From Phycisphaeraceae bacterium (GTDB lineage: Bacteria; Planctomycetota; Phycisphaerae; Phycisphaerales; Phycisphaeraceae), in assembly GCA_029260655.1 (NCBI GenBank), contig JAJDCU010000068.1, positions 1 to 34,668 of the forward strand: 34,668 nt of DNA, read 5' to 3'. Of this stretch, positions 15,256 to 31,904 are shown in pieces. Below the pieces are notes generated by a model. It had not been told where the DNA came from. It saw nothing but the letters and a program-made list of their open reading frames with translations, and made no database searches. Within the stretch, counting starts at the first letter, position 1. Every line of letters begins with the position of its first letter. A program made the position numbers and the translations under genes.

Positions 15256-15320
15256 TGAGCCCGTCCGGCTTAGCGGCCTGCCCGATGCGGTGACGACCGC
15301 GTCTTGTGGAGAGCAAGAGG

Positions 15321-16400
15321 ATGAGATTTCGTGCTTTGGTGCCGGCAGTAGTGCGGATTAACGCTCTGGCAGTCGGCCCTATGGCCAAAGCCCTCGCCTT
15401 GGTTGTCGCTGTGACTGTCGCTTTTCTATCCGTTGTTGGCACGGGTTCCGTAGCGTGCGCGGATACGGTTCACGAGCCCGAGCCCAAGTCCCAGCCCGGG
15501 CCTGGGGGCGATGTCGAGACATTCTTGCAAGATGTGACTTCCGTGGCGCACCCGCCGCTCAGCGAGATCAGTGGGATCGTCCGCAGCCGCACTTATCCAG
15601 GCGTCTGGTGGGTCCACAACGACAGCGGCGACGAGCCTCGCCTGTTTGCGATCGACGCCCAAGGGCATGTGGTCATGCCGGCCAGGCTGCGCAACAGGTA
15701 CTATGCGCAAGAGTTCGAGGAAGGCAAGGAGCCCTGGCCGGGCATCTCGATGCTCAACAGCGCCCATGTCGACTGGGAAGACATCACGATCGACGACGGC
15801 CGGTTGTATATCGCTGACATGGGGAACAACGGCAACGCGCGGCGCGACCTGGGCTTCTACATCGTCAATGAGCCCAACCCGCAGGCGACGGACCGCGGGG
15901 CTCGTCCGATTTCTTTTATCCCCGTGGCCTACCCCGACCAGGAGAGCTACCCCCCGGAGGATTGGCGTTTCGATTGCGAGGCGGTCTTTGTTTCAGGTGG
16001 CCGGCTGTACCTGCTGACCAAGCATCGGGCTGAGGGACGGGTTGACCGGCTCACCTACGGCACGAACCTTTACCGTCTGGACACCACCCACAGCGACCGC
16101 GAAAACATACTCACACTTGTCAGCGCTGGCGGGGAATTGCCGTTGGTCCCGACCGCGGCCGACCTATCCCCCGATGGCAAGCGGCTGGCGGTGCTTAGCT
16201 ACGACGGGGTATGGATGTTTGAAGCACCGGACGCCAGCGACGACTGGCTGGGGGGCAAGGCGTGGCGGCTGGCGATCTCCCCGATGCGTTTAAGGCAGGC
16301 CGAAGGGATCTGCTGGGACGACGAAACGACCGTCAGGATCGTCAATGAGCAGCGCGATCTATTCACCCTGGATGTCAAGCATTTGAAGCCGGCGCCCTGA
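15321..16400 (+). CDS. Secreted beta-propeller-like protein, unknown function
   Basis: The 359-residue protein has an N-terminal hydrophobic export segment (ALALVVAVTVAFLSVVGTG, about 24-42). Its body is rich in propeller-like blades: LSEISGIVRSRTYPGVWWVHND (about 78-99), EPRLFAIDAQGHV, VDWEDITIDDGRLYIADMGNNG, FDCEAVFVSGGRLYLLTKH, PTAADLSPDGKRLAVLSYDG and AEGICWDDETTVRIVNEQR. The 'E-I-S-G…W.HND.GD' opening and 'EAE(G/A)I' closing blade recall SdiA-regulated or SMP-30-like propellers, but I cannot name a family with certainty. ATG 15321 has GGAG 8 bases upstream; the next Met (15381) has none. It may act in the periplasm or on the cell surface. The small zinc-ribbon gene follows after 22 bases. 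Confidence 0.65.
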   Translation: MRFRALVPAVVRINALAVGPMAKALALVVAVTVAFLSVVGTGSVACADTVHEPEPKSQPGPGGDVETFLQDVTSVAHPPLSEISGIVRSRTYPGVWWVHNDSGDEPRLFAIDAQGHVVMPARLRNRYYAQEFEEGKEPWPGISMLNSAHVDWEDITIDDGRLYIADMGNNGNARRDLGFYIVNEPNPQATDRGARPISFIPVAYPDQESYPPEDWRFDCEAVFVSGGRLYLLTKHRAEGRVDRLTYGTNLYRLDTTHSDRENILTLVSAGGELPLVPTAADLSPDGKRLAVLSYDGVWMFEAPDASDDWLGGKAWRLAISPMRLRQAEGICWDDETTVRIVNEQRDLFTLDVKHLKPAP

Positions 16401-16928: not shown

Positions 16929-19064
16929 TCACGCGTCGGGACCGTGTCCGACAGCCCCTGGGGCCAGGTATTGAGCCCTTAACTGGGCGATACTTTCAGG
17001 CAGGCCGACGATGGTGAGGCGGTCCGCTCCCTGCAGGACGGTGTCGCCGCGCGGGAAGATCGTTTCCCCGGCCCGGTCGACGATCGCTACCAGGCAACCG
17101 TCGGGCAGGGAAAGCGAGCGCAATGGCTTGCCGACGAGTTGGGCGGTCGGGCCCTGGTCACTCAGCACCAGCGACAGGTAGCGCGCCTCATGGATCAGGA
17201 TCTCTTTGAGCTTGTGCTCGTCGTCGTTCGCCAACCACCTGGGCATGAACTGCTCGTCGTCGACGTGCTGGGCGACCTGGGCGAGGATACGCAGGTGCAG
17301 TGCGGCGTCGTCATCGGGGCTGATCAGGAAGATCACGGCGTAGATCGCCTGGTCGGTGCCGTGGACCGCCAGTTGTTGCTCGATCTCGATGCGTACGCCA
17401 CGTGGTATCCGCGCCAGCACCATCAGGGCGTGTTGCAGGCCCGGCAGGCGTACGTGGGGCAGCGCTACGCCCTTGGAGACCGGTGTTGCCCCGACGCGCG
17501 TTCCTTCCAGAATACTGTCCGCCAATTGCCCGGCGCTGATCGGCAGATGCACCGCCAGCTTGGCCGAGGCCTTGTGGACGACCTTCTCGAACGTGGTGGC
17601 GTCCAGGATGTTGATGACCGAGGCGCGTGCGACGATCTGGTCGTAGGGGTCGTCGGCGCGGAGGCCTTTTTCCTTGAGGATCCCGCGCAGCTCGCGGTCG
17701 AGCCCGGCGTACTGGCGCTGGCCAAGCCGGGCGAAGAGGTGGTAGATCGCGCCGCCGCGTTCGACCCGGCTCTTGGCGTAGTAGAAGTACCAGATCACCC
17801 CCACCAGGATCAGGCCCGCGGAGAACAGCATCGGCATCGGGCCCATCATCGCGATATACCCCAACGGCGCCGCGATCCCCGCCAGGTGCAGCCAGGGGTA
17901 CCAGGGCGAGCGGAAGCCCGGATCGTACGAGTCCAGCCGGCTCTCACGCATGACCAGCACCGCCAGGCAGTTGAGCGCAAACAGCAGCAGGATGAATGCG
18001 CTGGCGAGCTTGGCGATCTTGGTCGGGTCAAAGAAACACACACACAACAGCACGGCCACGACGGTGAAGATCACGGCATGGTGAGGCGCCTTGTGGCGGT
18101 TGAGCTTGCGGAGCGCCGACGGCAGCAGGTGGTCCCGGCTCATCGCCAGGGGGTAGCGTGAGGCGCTTAAGATCCCGGCATTGCCGACCGACAGAAACGC
18201 AAGCACGGCCGCGAAGGTCATCACCGCCGCGCCAGGCACGCCGGCCATCACCTCTGCGGCGTCGGCGACGGGAGTGAGGCTAGGGGTTTCTCCCGCGTAG
18301 AGCTGCTCGGGCCGGACCAGCCCCACGATCACATAGGTCCCAAGGCCGTAGACCACCACCGCGGTCAGCATGGCCAGGAATATCCCAAGAGGCAGATTGC
18401 GCTCGGGGTTCTTCACCTCCTCGGCGACGCTGGCAACCTTGGTGATGCCCATGTAGCTGATGCAGACCATCCCCGAGGCCGCGAAGATAGGCGCCCAGCC
18501 GCTTGCGAAGAAGTCGGCGAAGTAGTTCTGCTCGTGGGTGTGGATGTGGCTGACGCCGCTGGCGGAGAACCACAGAAGCAGGATCAGCAGCCCGACCACC
18601 AGCCATGTCTGCACGGCACCGGACTTGCTTGCGCCGAAAAGATTCAGGACACCGAACGCGACCGCCAGCGCCGCCGCGAGCGGGACCATCGGCAACTCCG
18701 GGAAAAATACATCCACGTAGGCGCCGATACCGATCAGCGCAAAGGCGGTCTTAAGCACCAGCGAACTCCAGGTCCCCATCCCGGCGATCGTGCCGGCCAG
18801 GGGCCCGAGGCTGCGGTCCAGGAAGTAGTACTCGCCGCCCGCCCGTGGCATCGCGGTCGCCAATTCGATCTTGGCCAGCACCCCCGGCAGCAACGGCAGC
18901 AGCGCCAGCAGGTAGCTGAGGATGACCGCCGGGCCCGCTTCCGCCGCCGCCAACCCGGGGAGCAGGAAGAAGCCCGAACTGAGCGTCGCCCCTGTCGCAA
19001 GCGTGTAAACGTTGAAAAGCGTCAGGCTTTTCTTGAGTTGTCTGGAGCGGTTCAAGATCGGCAT
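16929..19064 (-). CDS. APC-family permease fused to PTS EIIA-like and RCK_C domains
   Basis: The 711-residue protein has three parts. Residues 1 to about 435 are an amino acid-polyamine-organocation (APC) permease with about 12 helices: GATLSSGFFLLPGLAAAEAGP in TM1, MPRAGGEYYFLDRSLGP in TM3, and ITKVASVAEEVKNPERNLP in the TM6-7 loop. Residues about 485-625 resemble a fructose/mannitol-type PTS EIIA domain, with the phosphohistidine motif GVALPHVRLPG (His about 537) and the LISP…HL.IL core. Residues about 630-690 are a TrkA_C/RCK_C ligand-binding domain (VGKPLRSLSLPDGCLVAIVDR…LQGADRLTIVG). The domain order suggests a transporter gated by a regulatory module, possibly sensing nucleotide or PTS phosphorylation state. 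ATG 19064 has AGGA 6 bases upstream; a GTG at 19082 is an alternative. It is monocistronic. Confidence 0.88.
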   Translation of the reverse strand: MPILNRSRQLKKSLTLFNVYTLATGATLSSGFFLLPGLAAAEAGPAVILSYLLALLPLLPGVLAKIELATAMPRAGGEYYFLDRSLGPLAGTIAGMGTWSSLVLKTAFALIGIGAYVDVFFPELPMVPLAAALAVAFGVLNLFGASKSGAVQTWLVVGLLILLLWFSASGVSHIHTHEQNYFADFFASGWAPIFAASGMVCISYMGITKVASVAEEVKNPERNLPLGIFLAMLTAVVVYGLGTYVIVGLVRPEQLYAGETPSLTPVADAAEVMAGVPGAAVMTFAAVLAFLSVGNAGILSASRYPLAMSRDHLLPSALRKLNRHKAPHHAVIFTVVAVLLCVCFFDPTKIAKLASAFILLLFALNCLAVLVMRESRLDSYDPGFRSPWYPWLHLAGIAAPLGYIAMMGPMPMLFSAGLILVGVIWYFYYAKSRVERGGAIYHLFARLGQRQYAGLDRELRGILKEKGLRADDPYDQIVARASVINILDATTFEKVVHKASAKLAVHLPISAGQLADSILEGTRVGATPVSKGVALPHVRLPGLQHALMVLARIPRGVRIEIEQQLAVHGTDQAIYAVIFLISPDDDAALHLRILAQVAQHVDDEQFMPRWLANDDEHKLKEILIHEARYLSLVLSDQGPTAQLVGKPLRSLSLPDGCLVAIVDRAGETIFPRGDTVLQGADRLTIVGLPESIAQLRAQYLAPGAVGHGPDA

Positions 19065-19066
19065 AG

Positions 19067-19082
19067 GTGTCCTGTCGGACAC
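19067..19082. promoter_or_regulatory. Palindrome overlapping the ribosome site of the APC fusion gene
   Basis: GTGTCC-TGTC-GGACAC is a perfect 6-bp dyad with a 4-base centre, ending 2 bases before ATG 19064. On the minus-strand mRNA the AGGA ribosome site lies in the loop edge and 3' arm. A hairpin here could hide it, or the dyad could be a DNA operator. A TAAAGT hexamer (19086-19081) sits directly upstream as a -10 candidate. Confidence 0.5.
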
Positions 19083-19285: not shown

Positions 19286-19882
19286 ATGGCGGATGGGCCT
19301 TCTATGAGCCTGGGGACACAAGGATCGGGCACACGCTGTGTGGTGCTGGCCCCGCAGGGTGGATTGGCGCCTGCCGACCTGCTTAGCGGGCTGTCCCGGC
19401 GCGGTGTCAGCACGGCTGTGGTCGCTGACCCGGCGGCGGTGATGGTCGAGTTGGCCCGTTTTGCGACCGGGGCCCTGATCGTGGTCCAGCCGGATCTTCA
19501 GCCGGATCTGCCGGAGTTGATCCAAGCGGTGAAGGCCTACTACCCGCGGACCGTGCGCTGGTGCTACCGGGTGGATCAGGCTTCGGGCAAACCGCAGTTG
19601 GGCAAGCTTAACGGACATGTCTCTGACGCTGGGCAAGGGAACCTGGCGCTGACCGAAGCGGGCAACGACGGCCGGCTGGCGGCGCAACGTCAGTCAGAAC
19701 GCACGCCCCTGGCCCGGGTCGATCACGGCATGCCCAACGAGCGTGTACGTTCGCTGATCGTGAAGGTAGACGCCCTGCCTGGGGGGGACCAGCCGCTGAT
19801 CAGTGAGGAAGAACTGTCGATGCTGCTTGGGCCTGTGCCCGAGCCCGAAGCGCTGGACGATCCCAAGGGGGGGCAAGGATGA
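19286..19882 (+). CDS. Degenerate receiver-like protein, partner of the diguanylate cyclase
   Basis: The 198-residue protein has no family I can name. Residues about 17-95 alternate strands and helices in the manner of a response-regulator receiver: RCVVLAPQ, GVSTAVVADPAAVMVELARF, GALIVVQPDLQPDLPELIQAV and YYPRTVRWCY. The phosphoacceptor position is Gln/Pro-rich instead of Asp, so phosphorylation is unlikely. Residues 100-170 are polar and probably disordered, followed by a short acidic helix (LISEEELSMLLGP). The gene overlaps the GGDEF gene by ATGA (19879-19882), implying coupled translation and a joint function, perhaps as regulator of the cyclase. ATG 19286 is chosen because of the TAAAAT element; ATG 19304 is an alternative. 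Confidence 0.65.
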   Translation: MADGPSMSLGTQGSGTRCVVLAPQGGLAPADLLSGLSRRGVSTAVVADPAAVMVELARFATGALIVVQPDLQPDLPELIQAVKAYYPRTVRWCYRVDQASGKPQLGKLNGHVSDAGQGNLALTEAGNDGRLAAQRQSERTPLARVDHGMPNERVRSLIVKVDALPGGDQPLISEEELSMLLGPVPEPEALDDPKGGQG

Positions 19883-21252
19883 ATCCCCCCGCGACCGATC
19901 CCAACCCGCTAGCCAATAGCACGACAGACCCGCTTGGGATGCCAGACGGCCCGCGTGTATTGGTCGTGGGAGAGCCTGCGCTGGCGCGTCGTTTAGCGGG
20001 GTTGATCGATCCAAAGGGAAAAAGCAGTCCACGTTGCATGGGGGTGCCCAGCTACCTCTCGGCTCTGGGCGAGGCGTCGACCGGGCCGGTGGACGTGGTG
20101 ATTGGTCCCGTGGACAGGTTCCCGGGCTCGGCCGAATCGGTCGTCCGCGGCCTGCGTGCGCTGTCGCCGGGGGCCAGGCTGATCGCTCTGTGCAACCAGG
20201 ATTCGGCCGCGCGTGGCAAGCAGGCCGTACAGGCGGGGTTTGACCACTGCCTGGTGGAGCCGGTCGAAGCCGGCGAGCTATCTGAGTTGATCGGAGCCAC
20301 AGGCGCTTCGGCATCGGCACGCGCGACCGGCGAGATCACAGACAACGGCAACGGCGAGCAGCTAGATCAACACACGCAGGCCAACCCGCCGCCAGACGCA
20401 GACAACCAGGACCTGGGGGATATTGATCTGGTTGAGTCGTTGCTGACGTGCGATGGCGATCTGTGCGGCGTGGCGGTGCGTATCGTCTCAGCGAACTCGG
20501 GGATCGCCGGGGTGGGGCTTTGCCTTGTCGACGGGCAGCCGCCAAAGACGGATGTGTCTGTTTCGGTTGATTATCGCGGTCGGTGTTTCGGCCGATTGCA
20601 CGCCCCAGCTCCGGCGACGACTCAGCAGTTGGCCGCTTGGGCCGGCTGGCTGGGCAGGTGGCTTGCGCTGCAAAACCAGGTTGCTCAACTCGGTGACATG
20701 GCGTTACGCGACGAGCTGACCGGGATCTGGAACCGCCGATACTTCAACCGCTTTCTGGATCGGATCCTGCGCCGGGCCTCGGTCGACCGTTCCCCGGTCA
20801 CCCTGTTGGTTTTCGATATCGACGACTTCAAGGTCTACAACGATGCCTACGGCCATGGGATGGGCGACGAGGTGCTCTGCGAAACGGCCCGGATGATGGC
20901 CTCGGTCGTGCGCGAGCACGATGTGGTCGCACGGATCGGCGGGGACGAGTTCGCGGTCATCTTCTGGGATAACGACAAGCCACGAAGGCCCAACAGCTCG
21001 CATCCTCAGGATGTGGTCGCCGCCGCCCGGCGTTTTCAGGAGGCGATCTGCTCGCACCGCTTCCCCAAGCTGCTGGATAAGGCGCCGGGCCAATTGACTG
21101 TGTCCGGGGGGCTGGCCAGCTTCCCCTGGGACGGGCGGACCCCCGGAGAACTGATGGCGCGGGCCGACGCGATGGCGATGCAGTCCAAACGCCAGGGCAA
21201 AAATGCGATCACCTTCGGCACCGGCGCCAAGCGGCGTTGCCCGGATGACTGA
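19879..21252 (+). CDS. Diguanylate cyclase (GGDEF) with degenerate receiver domain
   Basis: The 457-residue protein is predicted to make cyclic di-GMP from two GTP. Residues 25-138 form a receiver-like fold (RVLVVGEPALARRLAGLI…VDVVIGPVDRFPG…LIALCNQDSAARGKQ…DHCLVEPVEAGELSEL) whose phospho-Asp position is occupied by Gly/Pro. Residues about 180-265 look GAF-like. The GGDEF domain starts at about 275: DELTGIWNRRYFNRFL, FDIDDFKVYNDAYGHGMGD, then the intact active-site GGDEF (354-358). The inhibitory I-site RxxD (Arg345-Asp348) sits exactly five residues before it, so product feedback is expected. No EAL domain and no membrane segment are present, so it is cytoplasmic. Translation is coupled to the preceding gene. 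Confidence 0.92.
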   Translation: MNPPATDPNPLANSTTDPLGMPDGPRVLVVGEPALARRLAGLIDPKGKSSPRCMGVPSYLSALGEASTGPVDVVIGPVDRFPGSAESVVRGLRALSPGARLIALCNQDSAARGKQAVQAGFDHCLVEPVEAGELSELIGATGASASARATGEITDNGNGEQLDQHTQANPPPDADNQDLGDIDLVESLLTCDGDLCGVAVRIVSANSGIAGVGLCLVDGQPPKTDVSVSVDYRGRCFGRLHAPAPATTQQLAAWAGWLGRWLALQNQVAQLGDMALRDELTGIWNRRYFNRFLDRILRRASVDRSPVTLLVFDIDDFKVYNDAYGHGMGDEVLCETARMMASVVREHDVVARIGGDEFAVIFWDNDKPRRPNSSHPQDVVAAARRFQEAICSHRFPKLLDKAPGQLTVSGGLASFPWDGRTPGELMARADAMAMQSKRQGKNAITFGTGAKRRCPDD

Positions 21253-30192: not shown

Positions 30193-31509
30193 GTGACGGA
30201 ATCGGCCATCGGCGTAGGTTTAATCGGATGTGGGACGGTCGGCGGCGGCGTCGCGAAATTGCTGCGCGAGCAGGCCGAGGTCTACGCGCAGCGGACCGGC
30301 CGGCCGATCGTGTTACGGCGTCTGCTGGACAAGGAAAAAGATCGGGTCATCCAGTCGGGGCTGGTTGACGCACAGATCGTCACCGACGATGTCGATGCGT
30401 TTTTCGATACGCCGGATATGCAGGTGGTGATCGAGTTGGCAGGCGGCACGGGCGCGGCGAGCGTGTTCGTCCGGCGGGCCCTCGAAGGCGGCAAACACGT
30501 CGTGACGGCGAACAAGGCCCTGCTCGCGGCGCAGGGGGCCGAGCTGTTCGCCCTGGCGCGCAAGCACAAGGTAAGCATCGCGTTCGAGGCGTCCTGCGGC
30601 GGCGGGATCCCCTGCGTGACCGCCTTGATGTTCGGGCTGATGGCCAACCGCATCGACGCGCTCTACGGGATCCTCAATGGCACCTGCAACTACATCCTCA
30701 CGGAGATGACCGGCAAGGGCAAGACCTACGACAAGGCGCTGGCCGATGCTCAGGCGCTAGGCTACGCCGAGGCCGACCCGACGCTGGATGTCAACGGCAA
30801 GGACACGGCCCACAAGCTGGCAATCCTCGGGTCGCTGGGGTTCGGTGCCCACATCGCGTTAGACGACATCCCGGTCACGGGCGTGGACGGGCTGGACCTT
30901 GGTGACATCCGCTTCGCTGCGGAGATGGGCTACGACATCAAGCTCCTGGCGATCGCCGAGCGCGCGCCCGGGCAGCAGGCCGTGAGCGTCGGTGTCGAGC
31001 CCTGCTTCATCCACGACGACGAACAACTTGCGCAGGTCGGCGGGGCGTTCAACGCGCTGTCGGTGTACGGGCACGCGGTGGGGCATACGCTGTATTTCGG
31101 CGCAGGCGCCGGTCAGATGCCGACCGCCAGCGCCGTGGTCAGCGACCTGTTGAACATCGCCGTGGGCTGGTACCCGCAGGGGTTTGAGCGTATGAAGCTC
31201 ACCCCGGACCTGCACCCGCCGGTCAAGCTCGCCGACCCCGACGATCTTGTGAGCCGACACTACATCCGCATCAACGCCAAGGACGAGCCGGGCGTGATCG
31301 CTAAGGCGACCGGGGCGCTGGGCGACCAGAGCATCAGCCTGTCGGCGGTCTTGCAGCACGAGTCCCACGACGGCAGCTACGTCCCGATCGTGATCGTCAC
31401 GCATTTGGCCAGGCGAGGCGACGTGTCCGAGGCGGTCAAGCGCATCGGATCACTCGACGCGATCCAGGGCCGGCCCGTGGTATTGCGGATCGTAGATATG
31501 CCCGCTTAA
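30193..31509 (+). CDS. hom: Homoserine dehydrogenase
   Basis: NAD(P)H-dependent reduction of aspartate semialdehyde to homoserine, the branch point to threonine, methionine and isoleucine. The 438 residues show a Rossmann motif GVGLIGCGTVGGGVAKLL (about 7-24), DMQVVIELAGGTGAA (about 74-88) and VTANKALLAAQG (about 103-114, catalytic region). AFEASCGGGIPCV, GILNGTCNYILTEM and ADPTLDVNGKDTAHKLAIL (substrate-binding and catalytic Asp/Lys region) follow. The C-terminal ACT domain (HYIRINAKDEPGVIAKATGAL, about 355-375) suggests feedback by threonine. GTG 30193 is chosen because TAGGAG lies about 9 bases upstream and the Rossmann strand follows directly; an open frame extends 126 bases upstream but has no support. 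The stop overlaps the stop of the convergent 31506-31904 gene. Confidence 0.95.
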   Translation: MTESAIGVGLIGCGTVGGGVAKLLREQAEVYAQRTGRPIVLRRLLDKEKDRVIQSGLVDAQIVTDDVDAFFDTPDMQVVIELAGGTGAASVFVRRALEGGKHVVTANKALLAAQGAELFALARKHKVSIAFEASCGGGIPCVTALMFGLMANRIDALYGILNGTCNYILTEMTGKGKTYDKALADAQALGYAEADPTLDVNGKDTAHKLAILGSLGFGAHIALDDIPVTGVDGLDLGDIRFAAEMGYDIKLLAIAERAPGQQAVSVGVEPCFIHDDEQLAQVGGAFNALSVYGHAVGHTLYFGAGAGQMPTASAVVSDLLNIAVGWYPQGFERMKLTPDLHPPVKLADPDDLVSRHYIRINAKDEPGVIAKATGALGDQSISLSAVLQHESHDGSYVPIVIVTHLARRGDVSEAVKRIGSLDAIQGRPVVLRIVDMPA

Positions 31510-31904
31510 TCGTCGTGCCCGTGATGGGCGGCGGTCTGACCAGACAGTTCTATGAGGAGTTCGGGCAGTTGAGCGGAAAAAGCGCCTCGATGCATCACCC
31601 GATGGGCGCCGCGTTGCTTGGCGGTTTCAAGCAACTGCTCCTGCACATGCGGGCCGAACGCGACAACCACCGGCGTCGTCTCATGCCGGCTTGCCTGTTC
31701 GATCAACCCCATCGCGGCATCGCCCATCGTCACATCCACCAGCACGGCGCGGACCGTGTCGTTGGGTTTGCCGTCATCGACCCGGTCAAGACGGTTCCCC
31801 AGCGCGGCCTGGTCACGCGCCGGGCGGCTCACGATCCCAAGCGCCTGGGCCGTCGAGTGGATCTTGGTGGCGAAAATAAGGTCCGAGCAGCTATATACGA
31901 TCAT
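31506..31904 (-). CDS. Stand-alone receiver-like protein, unknown function
   Basis: The 132-residue protein resembles a single response-regulator receiver fold: MIVYSCSDLIFATKIHSTAQAL, VRAVLVDVTMGDAAMGLIEQA, ETTPVVVAFGPHVQEQLLETAKQRGAHRVMHRGAF and LPELLIEL. The strand-3 Asp is kept (VLVDVTM), but the N-terminal acidic pair is reduced to one Asp and the strand-5 Lys is replaced (VMHRG). Normal phosphorylation is therefore doubtful. No output domain is present. ATG 31904 is chosen over the in-frame start at 32003 because TATGAT lies six bases upstream. It is convergent with homoserine dehydrogenase; the two TAA stop codons share TTA/TAA bases. It is divergent from glutamate dehydrogenase (97-base gap). 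Confidence 0.65.
   Translation of the reverse strand: MIVYSCSDLIFATKIHSTAQALGIVSRPARDQAALGNRLDRVDDGKPNDTVRAVLVDVTMGDAAMGLIEQASRHETTPVVVAFGPHVQEQLLETAKQRGAHRVMHRGAFSAQLPELLIELSGQTAAHHGHDD

Follow-up and report, generated by a model that had tools for sequence, protein, structure and literature searches.

Fusion of a secondary carrier to an EIIA-type domain, and control of transporters by PtsN, are both known in kind from published work. LacS of streptococci and lactobacilli is a GPH carrier with a fused, C-terminal IIAGlc-like domain that is phosphorylated by HPr(His~P) (PMC10710835, PMC10703360; excerpts). In E. coli, unphosphorylated PtsN inhibits the RCK_C-bearing antiporter YcgO through the CorC domain, according to an excerpt of PMC11808508. 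The protein described here is similar to LacS in being a non-PTS secondary carrier with a cytoplasmic EIIA-type domain on the same chain. Unlike LacS, it has an APC permease, an EIIA of the Ntr/Fru/Mtl fold that lacks the active-site Arg, and a TrkA_C domain after it, and PTS_EIIC was not found above cut-off in the genomes searched. The protein is not itself of the LacS type, a GPH carrier with a IIAGlc domain, since Pfam assigned AA_permease_2 and PTS_EIIA_2; the comparison of how the two proteins might work is unaffected by this. With PtsN/YcgO it shares the pairing of an Ntr-type EIIA with a transporter having an RCK_C domain. PtsN, as described in that excerpt, is a separate protein that binds the CorC domain, whereas here EIIA and RCK_C are carried by the permease itself.

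A further likeness is to the SLC4 anion exchangers (band 3, AE2, BTR1), transporters with a cytoplasmic domain that matches the EIIA-like model. They belong to a different transporter family, and the match is one of fold only. In SLC4/band 3 transporters, this EIIA-like cytoplasmic part probably serves as a structural or docking domain. The literature covered (open-licence PubMed Central) showed neither the three-domain combination nor its spread, its altered active site or its linker.

Composition and spread of the three-domain protein

The window, the whole stretch of 34,668 nucleotides analysed from a Phycisphaeraceae bacterium, contains a minus-strand ORF that opens with an ATG at 19064 and whose stop codon ends at 16929 (table 1). 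An alternative in-frame GTG start at 19082 would give 717 aa instead of 711. Pfam placed three domains on the 711-aa chain in the order AA_permease_2 (residues 14-428, E 5e-48, 164.4 bits), PTS_EIIA_2 (residues 486-624, E 6e-15, 55.9 bits) and TrkA_C (residues 640-697, E 2e-13, 50.2 bits), each above its curated cut-off (gathering score 27 for all three). The initial annotation had read the gene as a permease, an EIIA and a TrkA_C domain on one polypeptide and had staked this on the PTS_EIIA_2 and TrkA_C profiles, both of which matched.

Table 1. Features of the permease-EIIA-TrkA_C gene in the window.
Feature	Position	Strand	Basis
Whole CDS, APC-EIIA-TrkA_C protein, 711 aa	16929..19064	minus	ORF, Pfam, homologues
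APC permease domain, residues 14-428	17781..19025	minus	Pfam; nearest structures 6f34/5oqt, mouse CAT1
Lys105, TM3 (third transmembrane segment)	18750..18752	minus	alignment of APC permeases
Conserved linker, residues 432-478 (GAIYH...ELRGILKEKGLR..DP)	17631..17771	minus	conservation, dN/dS
EIIA-Ntr-like domain, residues 479-628 (Pfam 486-624)	17181..17630	minus	Pfam, PDB matches, fold
Gly521, place of the EIIA-Ntr/Mtl active-site Arg (R51 N. meningitidis, R57 E. coli)	17502..17504	minus	alignment
His537, predicted phospho-acceptor, motif KGVALPH	17454..17456	minus	alignment: His in 99/100
Arg539, two residues past His537, equivalent of R69 of N. meningitidis IIANtr	17448..17450	minus	Arg in 88/100
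His590, equivalent of the EIIA second histidine (H120 of E. coli PtsN)	17295..17297	minus	His in 100/100
TrkA_C / RCK_C domain, residues 640-697	16974..17147	minus	Pfam, PDB matches, fold

Three close homologues, 74-82% identical, carry all three domains, and a fourth (77%; G002) ends with its contig after the permease. Together with its own genome, 41 genomes were compared, and 10 of the 40 relatives had an aligned full-length homologue (40-82% identical). Chance or an assembly artefact as the source of the three-domain chain was ruled out by full-length homologues in many independent assemblies. Whole-gene dN/dS in three close-homologue pairs was 0.13, 0.17 and 0.20 (Nei-Gojobori), values that are rough because dS ranged from 0.45 to 1.4, and indicates that the whole gene is under purifying selection.

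Two structure models, both of single chains, were used: a full-length model (AlphaFold2 on an alignment of 11; mean pLDDT 80, pTM 0.62) and a model of residues 436-704 (alignment of 55 chosen from 102; pLDDT 86, pTM 0.81). The C-terminal part was folded and searched alone because the 50 matches listed in the VIA table of the full-length model cover the permease.

A profile search of 392 Planctomycetota genomes gave matches at E 1e-60 or better in 56. Judged from the span of the match, the three-domain form was present in 21 of the 392 genomes (15 of them, plus the window, verified with domain HMMs or Pfam). An APC-EIIA form lacking TrkA_C was likewise present in 21 (8 verified). A third form, APC-Usp-EIIA, of about 900-1300 aa and with Usp ahead of EIIA, was seen in eight cases (L076-L083). 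In the seven scanned with Pfam, EIIA was above cut-off in all, and Usp was above it in five and just below it in two; the remaining case, L081, has permease and EIIA in two overlapping frames.

Among named genomes, at least 586 stretches matched and at least 546 encoded relatives. The best 80 of these at least 546 relatives all had the three domains, including one gene split by a stop (L138). Going by genome title, 18 of the 80 were Planctomycetota or Phycisphaera-type and 62 were other, among them Deltaproteobacteria/Desulfuromonadales, Bacteroidetes, Ignavibacteria/Melioribacteraceae, Calditrichia, SAR324, Gemmatimonadetes, Kiritimatiellae/Verrucomicrobia, Acidobacteriota, Latescibacterota, Myxococcales, Dadabacteria and Thermodesulfobacteriales, one Gammaproteobacteria MAG and a few unplaced. 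Since the 80 were picked by score, this spread of taxa is not a frequency, and nearly all of them are metagenome assemblies, of which some taxon labels may be wrong. Judging by these matches, bacteria from many phyla carry the three-domain protein.

A FastTree analysis of 81 permease domains comprised 54 from three-domain proteins, 9 labelled APC-EIIA, 8 APC-Usp-EIIA, 2 APC-Usp and 8 other APC permeases, which were checked as having no EIIA match. The EIIA-bearing permeases formed one clade with a support of 0.99. Within it, the three-domain permeases grouped at 0.997, including L086, which had been sorted automatically as APC-EIIA and is a three-domain gene cut short; the node uniting the APC-EIIA form with the three-domain form had a support of 0.147.

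Permease and linker

The permease part matched by sequence in the PDB a bacterial cationic amino-acid transporter homologue (6f34/5oqt). The model aligned to 6f34 with Z 44.3 and rmsd 2.2 over 419 residues (model residues 6-436) and to mouse CAT1 with Z 44.8, and by structure comparison the entire membrane region of the protein has the APC fold. The likeness to CAT/ApcT-type APC transporters is in the permease fold, over 417-419 residues at rmsd 2.2. The cut-off of the NCBIfam amino acid transporter subfamily TIGR00909 was not reached (208.3 bits vs 556.8).

The place of the TM5 Lys of 6f34/5oqt (K191, counted by hand), which has a role in proton coupling, is occupied by Leu159 in the window permease, and Lys105 in TM3 is fixed instead. 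Lys was found at the TM5 place in none of 71 EIIA-bearing permeases, as against 3 of 10 without EIIA, and at the TM3 place in all 71, as against none of the 10. Because Lys105 is fixed and the TM5 Lys is absent, the EIIA-bearing permeases are inferred to differ from the 6f34/5oqt structures in substrate or in ion coupling. Equating the permease with cationic amino-acid transporters was ruled out, since the TM5 and TM6 positions differ.

Residues 432-478, between permease and EIIA, had no Pfam match above cut-off and form the most conserved stretch of the three-domain protein. On average, the commonest residue at a position had a frequency of 0.73 in this linker (0.76 for residues 436-473), compared with 0.65 in the permease, 0.54 in EIIA and 0.56 in TrkA_C, and dN/dS was lowest there as well (0.035-0.042, vs 0.11-0.19 for permease and EIIA; three pairs). 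When compared by eye, the shorter APC-EIIA proteins have a similar linker, and the Usp form does not. The linker bears on the idea that EIIA acts in trans, with the permease anchoring a domain that buffers phosphate or relays it to other partners while transport itself goes unregulated. The single HPr of this genome, which two free ptsN-like EIIAs and this one would share, would suit such a role. A passive tether would not need so conserved a linker, however, and we regard action in trans as highly improbable.

The EIIA domain and the PTS around it

The GVALPH phosphohistidine motif reported in the initial annotation is present, as KGVALPH with H537. The assignment to the Fru/Mtl type held at the level of the family (PTS_EIIA_2) and gave way at the level of the nearest relative: in sequence and in modelled fold the domain is closest to EIIA-Ntr (PtsN), the regulatory branch, and Gly521 takes the place of the active-site Arg. 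Its PDB sequence matches were the PtsN entries 4gqx/3urr/1a6j, and this part of the model aligned to IIANtr 2a0j with Z 19.9 and rmsd 2.0 over 146 residues, and to 1a6j with Z 19.1. SLC4 cytoplasmic domains also matched the C-terminal model (Z 11.7-14.5 among the matches listed), a likeness that, in the model, is of shared fold only.

For the active-site counts, 102 three-domain sequences were aligned, which two identical pairs, each apparently one contig present in two collections, reduced to 100 distinct. The histidine on which the initial annotation had rested its case is retained in all of these except L169, where it is replaced by Tyr though enzyme I is encoded in that genome. Arg592 is Arg in all 100. 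At position 521, which lies 16 residues before His537, 85 of the sequences have Gly and 4 have Arg. According to an excerpt of PMC1201152, every IIANtr and IIAMtl protein conserves this Arg, and in IIANtr structures the second His points away from the active site; given that orientation, the conservation of His590 may be structural.

A joint alignment of EIIA domains, in which two added fragments brought the three-domain rows to 104 (duplicates kept), had the active-site Arg in 4 of the 104 and in 23 of 24 comparison EIIAs (APC-EIIA 7/8, APC-Usp-EIIA 8/8, exchanger-EIIA 6/6, the two ptsN-like EIIAs of the same genome 2/2). The Glu following this place was present in 3 of the 104 rows, and Arg and Glu occurred together in 23 of the 24 other EIIAs. 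From the alignments, the three-domain class has lost the first active-site Arg and has usually kept the second (Arg539). As the active-site Arg is Gly521 here, phosphorylation of His537 cannot be assumed. L088, which has no TrkA_C and carries Gln at the Arg place, was the sister of the three-domain clade (0.969), as if the Arg had been lost before TrkA_C was gained, a suggestion made by this single sequence. It was also observed that all six exchanger-EIIA proteins (L057, L058, L059, two in L066, L133) keep the active-site Arg and the phospho-His, and that the second His is Gln in five of them (L133 retains His), which is the opposite of what the three-domain permease shows.

The loss of Arg and Glu, the SLC4 match and the overall conservation of EIIA, slightly the lowest among the domains, all fit the main rival to a regulatory role for phosphorylation, namely that EIIA in the three-domain protein is a retired, non-phosphorylated structural or docking domain whose histidines are kept for structure or for another partner. 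We think this unlikely. Both histidines persist at the frequencies given in table 1 across many phyla, even in homologues no more than 40% identical to the protein of the window. Conservation in the stretch 521-539 far exceeds that of EIIA overall (0.75 vs 0.54), and enzyme I is encoded by 49 of the 50 carriers examined outside Planctomycetota.

The phosphate donor, left open in the initial annotation because none was visible in the window, does lie outside it, and is not missing. The genome (95% complete) has one enzyme I and one HPr, both on contigs other than that of the window, three EIIA_2 matches (this protein and the two free ptsN-like EIIAs) and one diadenylate cyclase (DAC) gene. PTS_EIIC (PF02378) was not found in this genome. 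HPr kinase was not found in it either, an absence that is weak because the same search was positive in only 3 of 14 controls and missed Bacillus subtilis, which has the enzyme. At G000:C16, about 30500-31800 (L004), a ribosome-hibernation-factor-like ORF (identified by eye), a ptsN-like EIIA and HPr lie in a row, which is likely to be the core of the regulatory PTS.

Enzyme I was detected in 369 and DAC in 361 of the 392 Planctomycetota genomes, and all 21 three-domain genomes of this draw have both (lists read by eye), a co-occurrence that is not diagnostic within the phylum because both are near universal. Regulatory enzyme I without PTS transporters had already been placed in Planctomycetes (PMC2405797, excerpt). 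The survey of the architecture and of PTS genes proposed in the initial annotation extended this beyond the phylum: in addition to the uniform architecture of the best 80 relatives, enzyme I was found in 49 of 50 carrier genomes with titles other than Planctomycetota. EIIC was above cut-off in none of these 50, with one weak match (PF02378 only; completeness unstated). In the 14 control genomes, enzyme I was present in seven and EIIC in the same seven.

RCK_C domain, gene neighbourhood and proposed mechanism

In other proteins, RCK_C domains dimerise and bind nucleotides, c-di-AMP among them. The TrkA_C part matched by sequence in the PDB Thermotoga TrkA 3jxo (E 4e-6) and the RCK domains 5f29/4ys2 (5f29, E 3e-3), with no KtrA chain at E up to 1. 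RCK_C entries were lacking among the 50 listed fold matches of the C-terminal model, yet Foldseek found 3jxo (E 2e-6) and 5f29 (E 5e-5) for its last part, with TM 0.78-0.80 by target length for 5f29/4ys2. The titles of the latter structures say 'with cda', taken to mean c-di-AMP. The protein resembles TrkA and 5f29/4ys2 in TrkA_C family and fold, and differs in that Pfam gave no TrkA_N match anywhere in the 711 residues. TrkA_C is weakly conserved (0.56), and its dN/dS exceeded that of the other parts in both pairs that allowed the calculation (the third did not). The BusR pocket residues given in an excerpt of PMC8517857 were compared with this domain by eye only, and an excerpt of PMC12453120 describes the nucleotide-binding residues of the KtrA RCK_C as less conserved among TrkA proteins.

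These data bear on whether RCK_C is the main switch, such that a nucleotide like c-di-AMP binds the dimer and shuts an osmolyte or amino-acid transporter, with EIIA merely tuning it. The TrkA_C score, the fold match, and DAC in this genome and in every one of the 21 three-domain Planctomycetota genomes agree with such a switch, as does KimA, an APC-fold protein (Z 38.5 vs the model) that is inactivated by c-di-AMP according to an excerpt of PMC10284832. The presence of DAC says little, however, in view of its frequency in the phylum, the sequence is nearer to Thermotoga TrkA than to 5f29, and the domain is the weakly conserved one just described; we consider a primary RCK_C switch improbable. 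c-di-AMP as a proven ligand of RCK_C was rejected as unsupported, DAC being nearly universal in the phylum.

The permease gene seemingly stands alone in the window. The upstream ORF 19286-19882 is divergent from it and has a GGDEF gene next to it, and ORF 15306-16400 is convergent with it, with recA beyond; neither flanking ORF had a Pfam match. The first of these encodes 198 aa directly ahead of the GGDEF protein (19286-21252). No gene neighbourhood was common to carriers across phyla. An operon partner conserved across phyla was also considered and rejected, as the largest clusters apart from the permease were, judged by position, other frames over its gene, and the next occurred in at most 14 loci. 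One scanned member each of four later neighbour clusters was a sensor kinase, a cytochrome c, an NrfD protein and an aldehyde dehydrogenase.

Na+/H+-exchanger-EIIA genes were found near the permease gene in five loci (L057, L058, L059, L066, L133; Pfam-supported). In L066 (4861-11186, genome G013) an exchanger-EIIA, the APC-EIIA-TrkA_C and a second exchanger-EIIA gene are consecutive on the same strand. Such a gene lies on the same strand directly upstream of the permease in L059 (8774-10534), and upstream at about 1.8 kb in L057 (6564-8360) and L058 (6988-8742). These three loci come from genomes of the same genus; the window differs, its upstream ORF being divergent. Long same-strand ORFs near these genes, at L057 4779-6560 (594 aa), L058 5245-6978 (578 aa) and L059 6850-8721 (624 aa), had no Pfam match. 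In L133 (850-3177), one chain of exchanger, TrkA_N and EIIA is encoded directly ahead of the APC-EIIA-TrkA_C gene. L063 (7030-11491, genome G018) holds a tandem pair of APC-EIIA-TrkA_C genes, and in L075 (10906-13101, genome G121) a transporter of the CitMHS type that bears TrkA_C lies some 1.6 kb away from the three-domain gene.

The reading preferred here, with moderate confidence, is that a regulatory, sugar-free PTS acts in cis, by way of His537 and the linker, on a CAT/ApcT-like APC protein that is a secondary carrier for amino acids, and that RCK_C serves as a dimer or ligand module. PEP would feed enzyme I, and HPr would hand the phosphoryl group to His537. The phosphorylation state would then act through the linker helices to shift the seating of EIIA on the permease, and transport would in this way track the cell's PEP/nitrogen state. 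The most likely role of RCK_C is to hold the dimer, and it may supply a second input. The rebuilt site, with the Arg 16 residues before His lost, Arg539 usually kept and Arg592 always kept, would probably alter the stability of the phospho-His or its rate rather than abolish phosphorylation.

Regulation in cis is supported by the near-invariant EIIA histidines, the conserved linker, the presence of enzyme I and HPr where EIIC was not found, the single clade of EIIA-bearing permeases, the exchanger-EIIA genes nearby in five loci and the precedents of LacS and of PtsN with YcgO. What counts against it is that the active-site Arg is missing in 96 of 100 sequences, a loss that might leave the domain unable to take phosphate, that L169 has Tyr for His despite enzyme I in its genome, that no neighbourhood is common across phyla, and that enzyme I is near universal in Planctomycetota. 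More tentatively, the PTS may, in many phyla, have lost its sugar transporter and have EIIA-carrying secondary transporters as one of its end points. The three-domain form, with its rebuilt phosphohistidine site, fixed linker and K+-channel-type RCK_C dimer, might then be a two-input amino-acid transporter reading both the PEP state and a small ligand.

In our judgement, the targets of regulatory PTS chains without sugar transporters seem poorly known outside Proteobacteria, and a conserved cis fusion is a direct candidate for such a target. The altered active site poses a clean question, whether an EIIA without the 'universal' Arg still accepts phosphate. If regulation in cis is true, carbon/nitrogen signalling would be tied to the transport of amino acids in many groups known chiefly through metagenomes.
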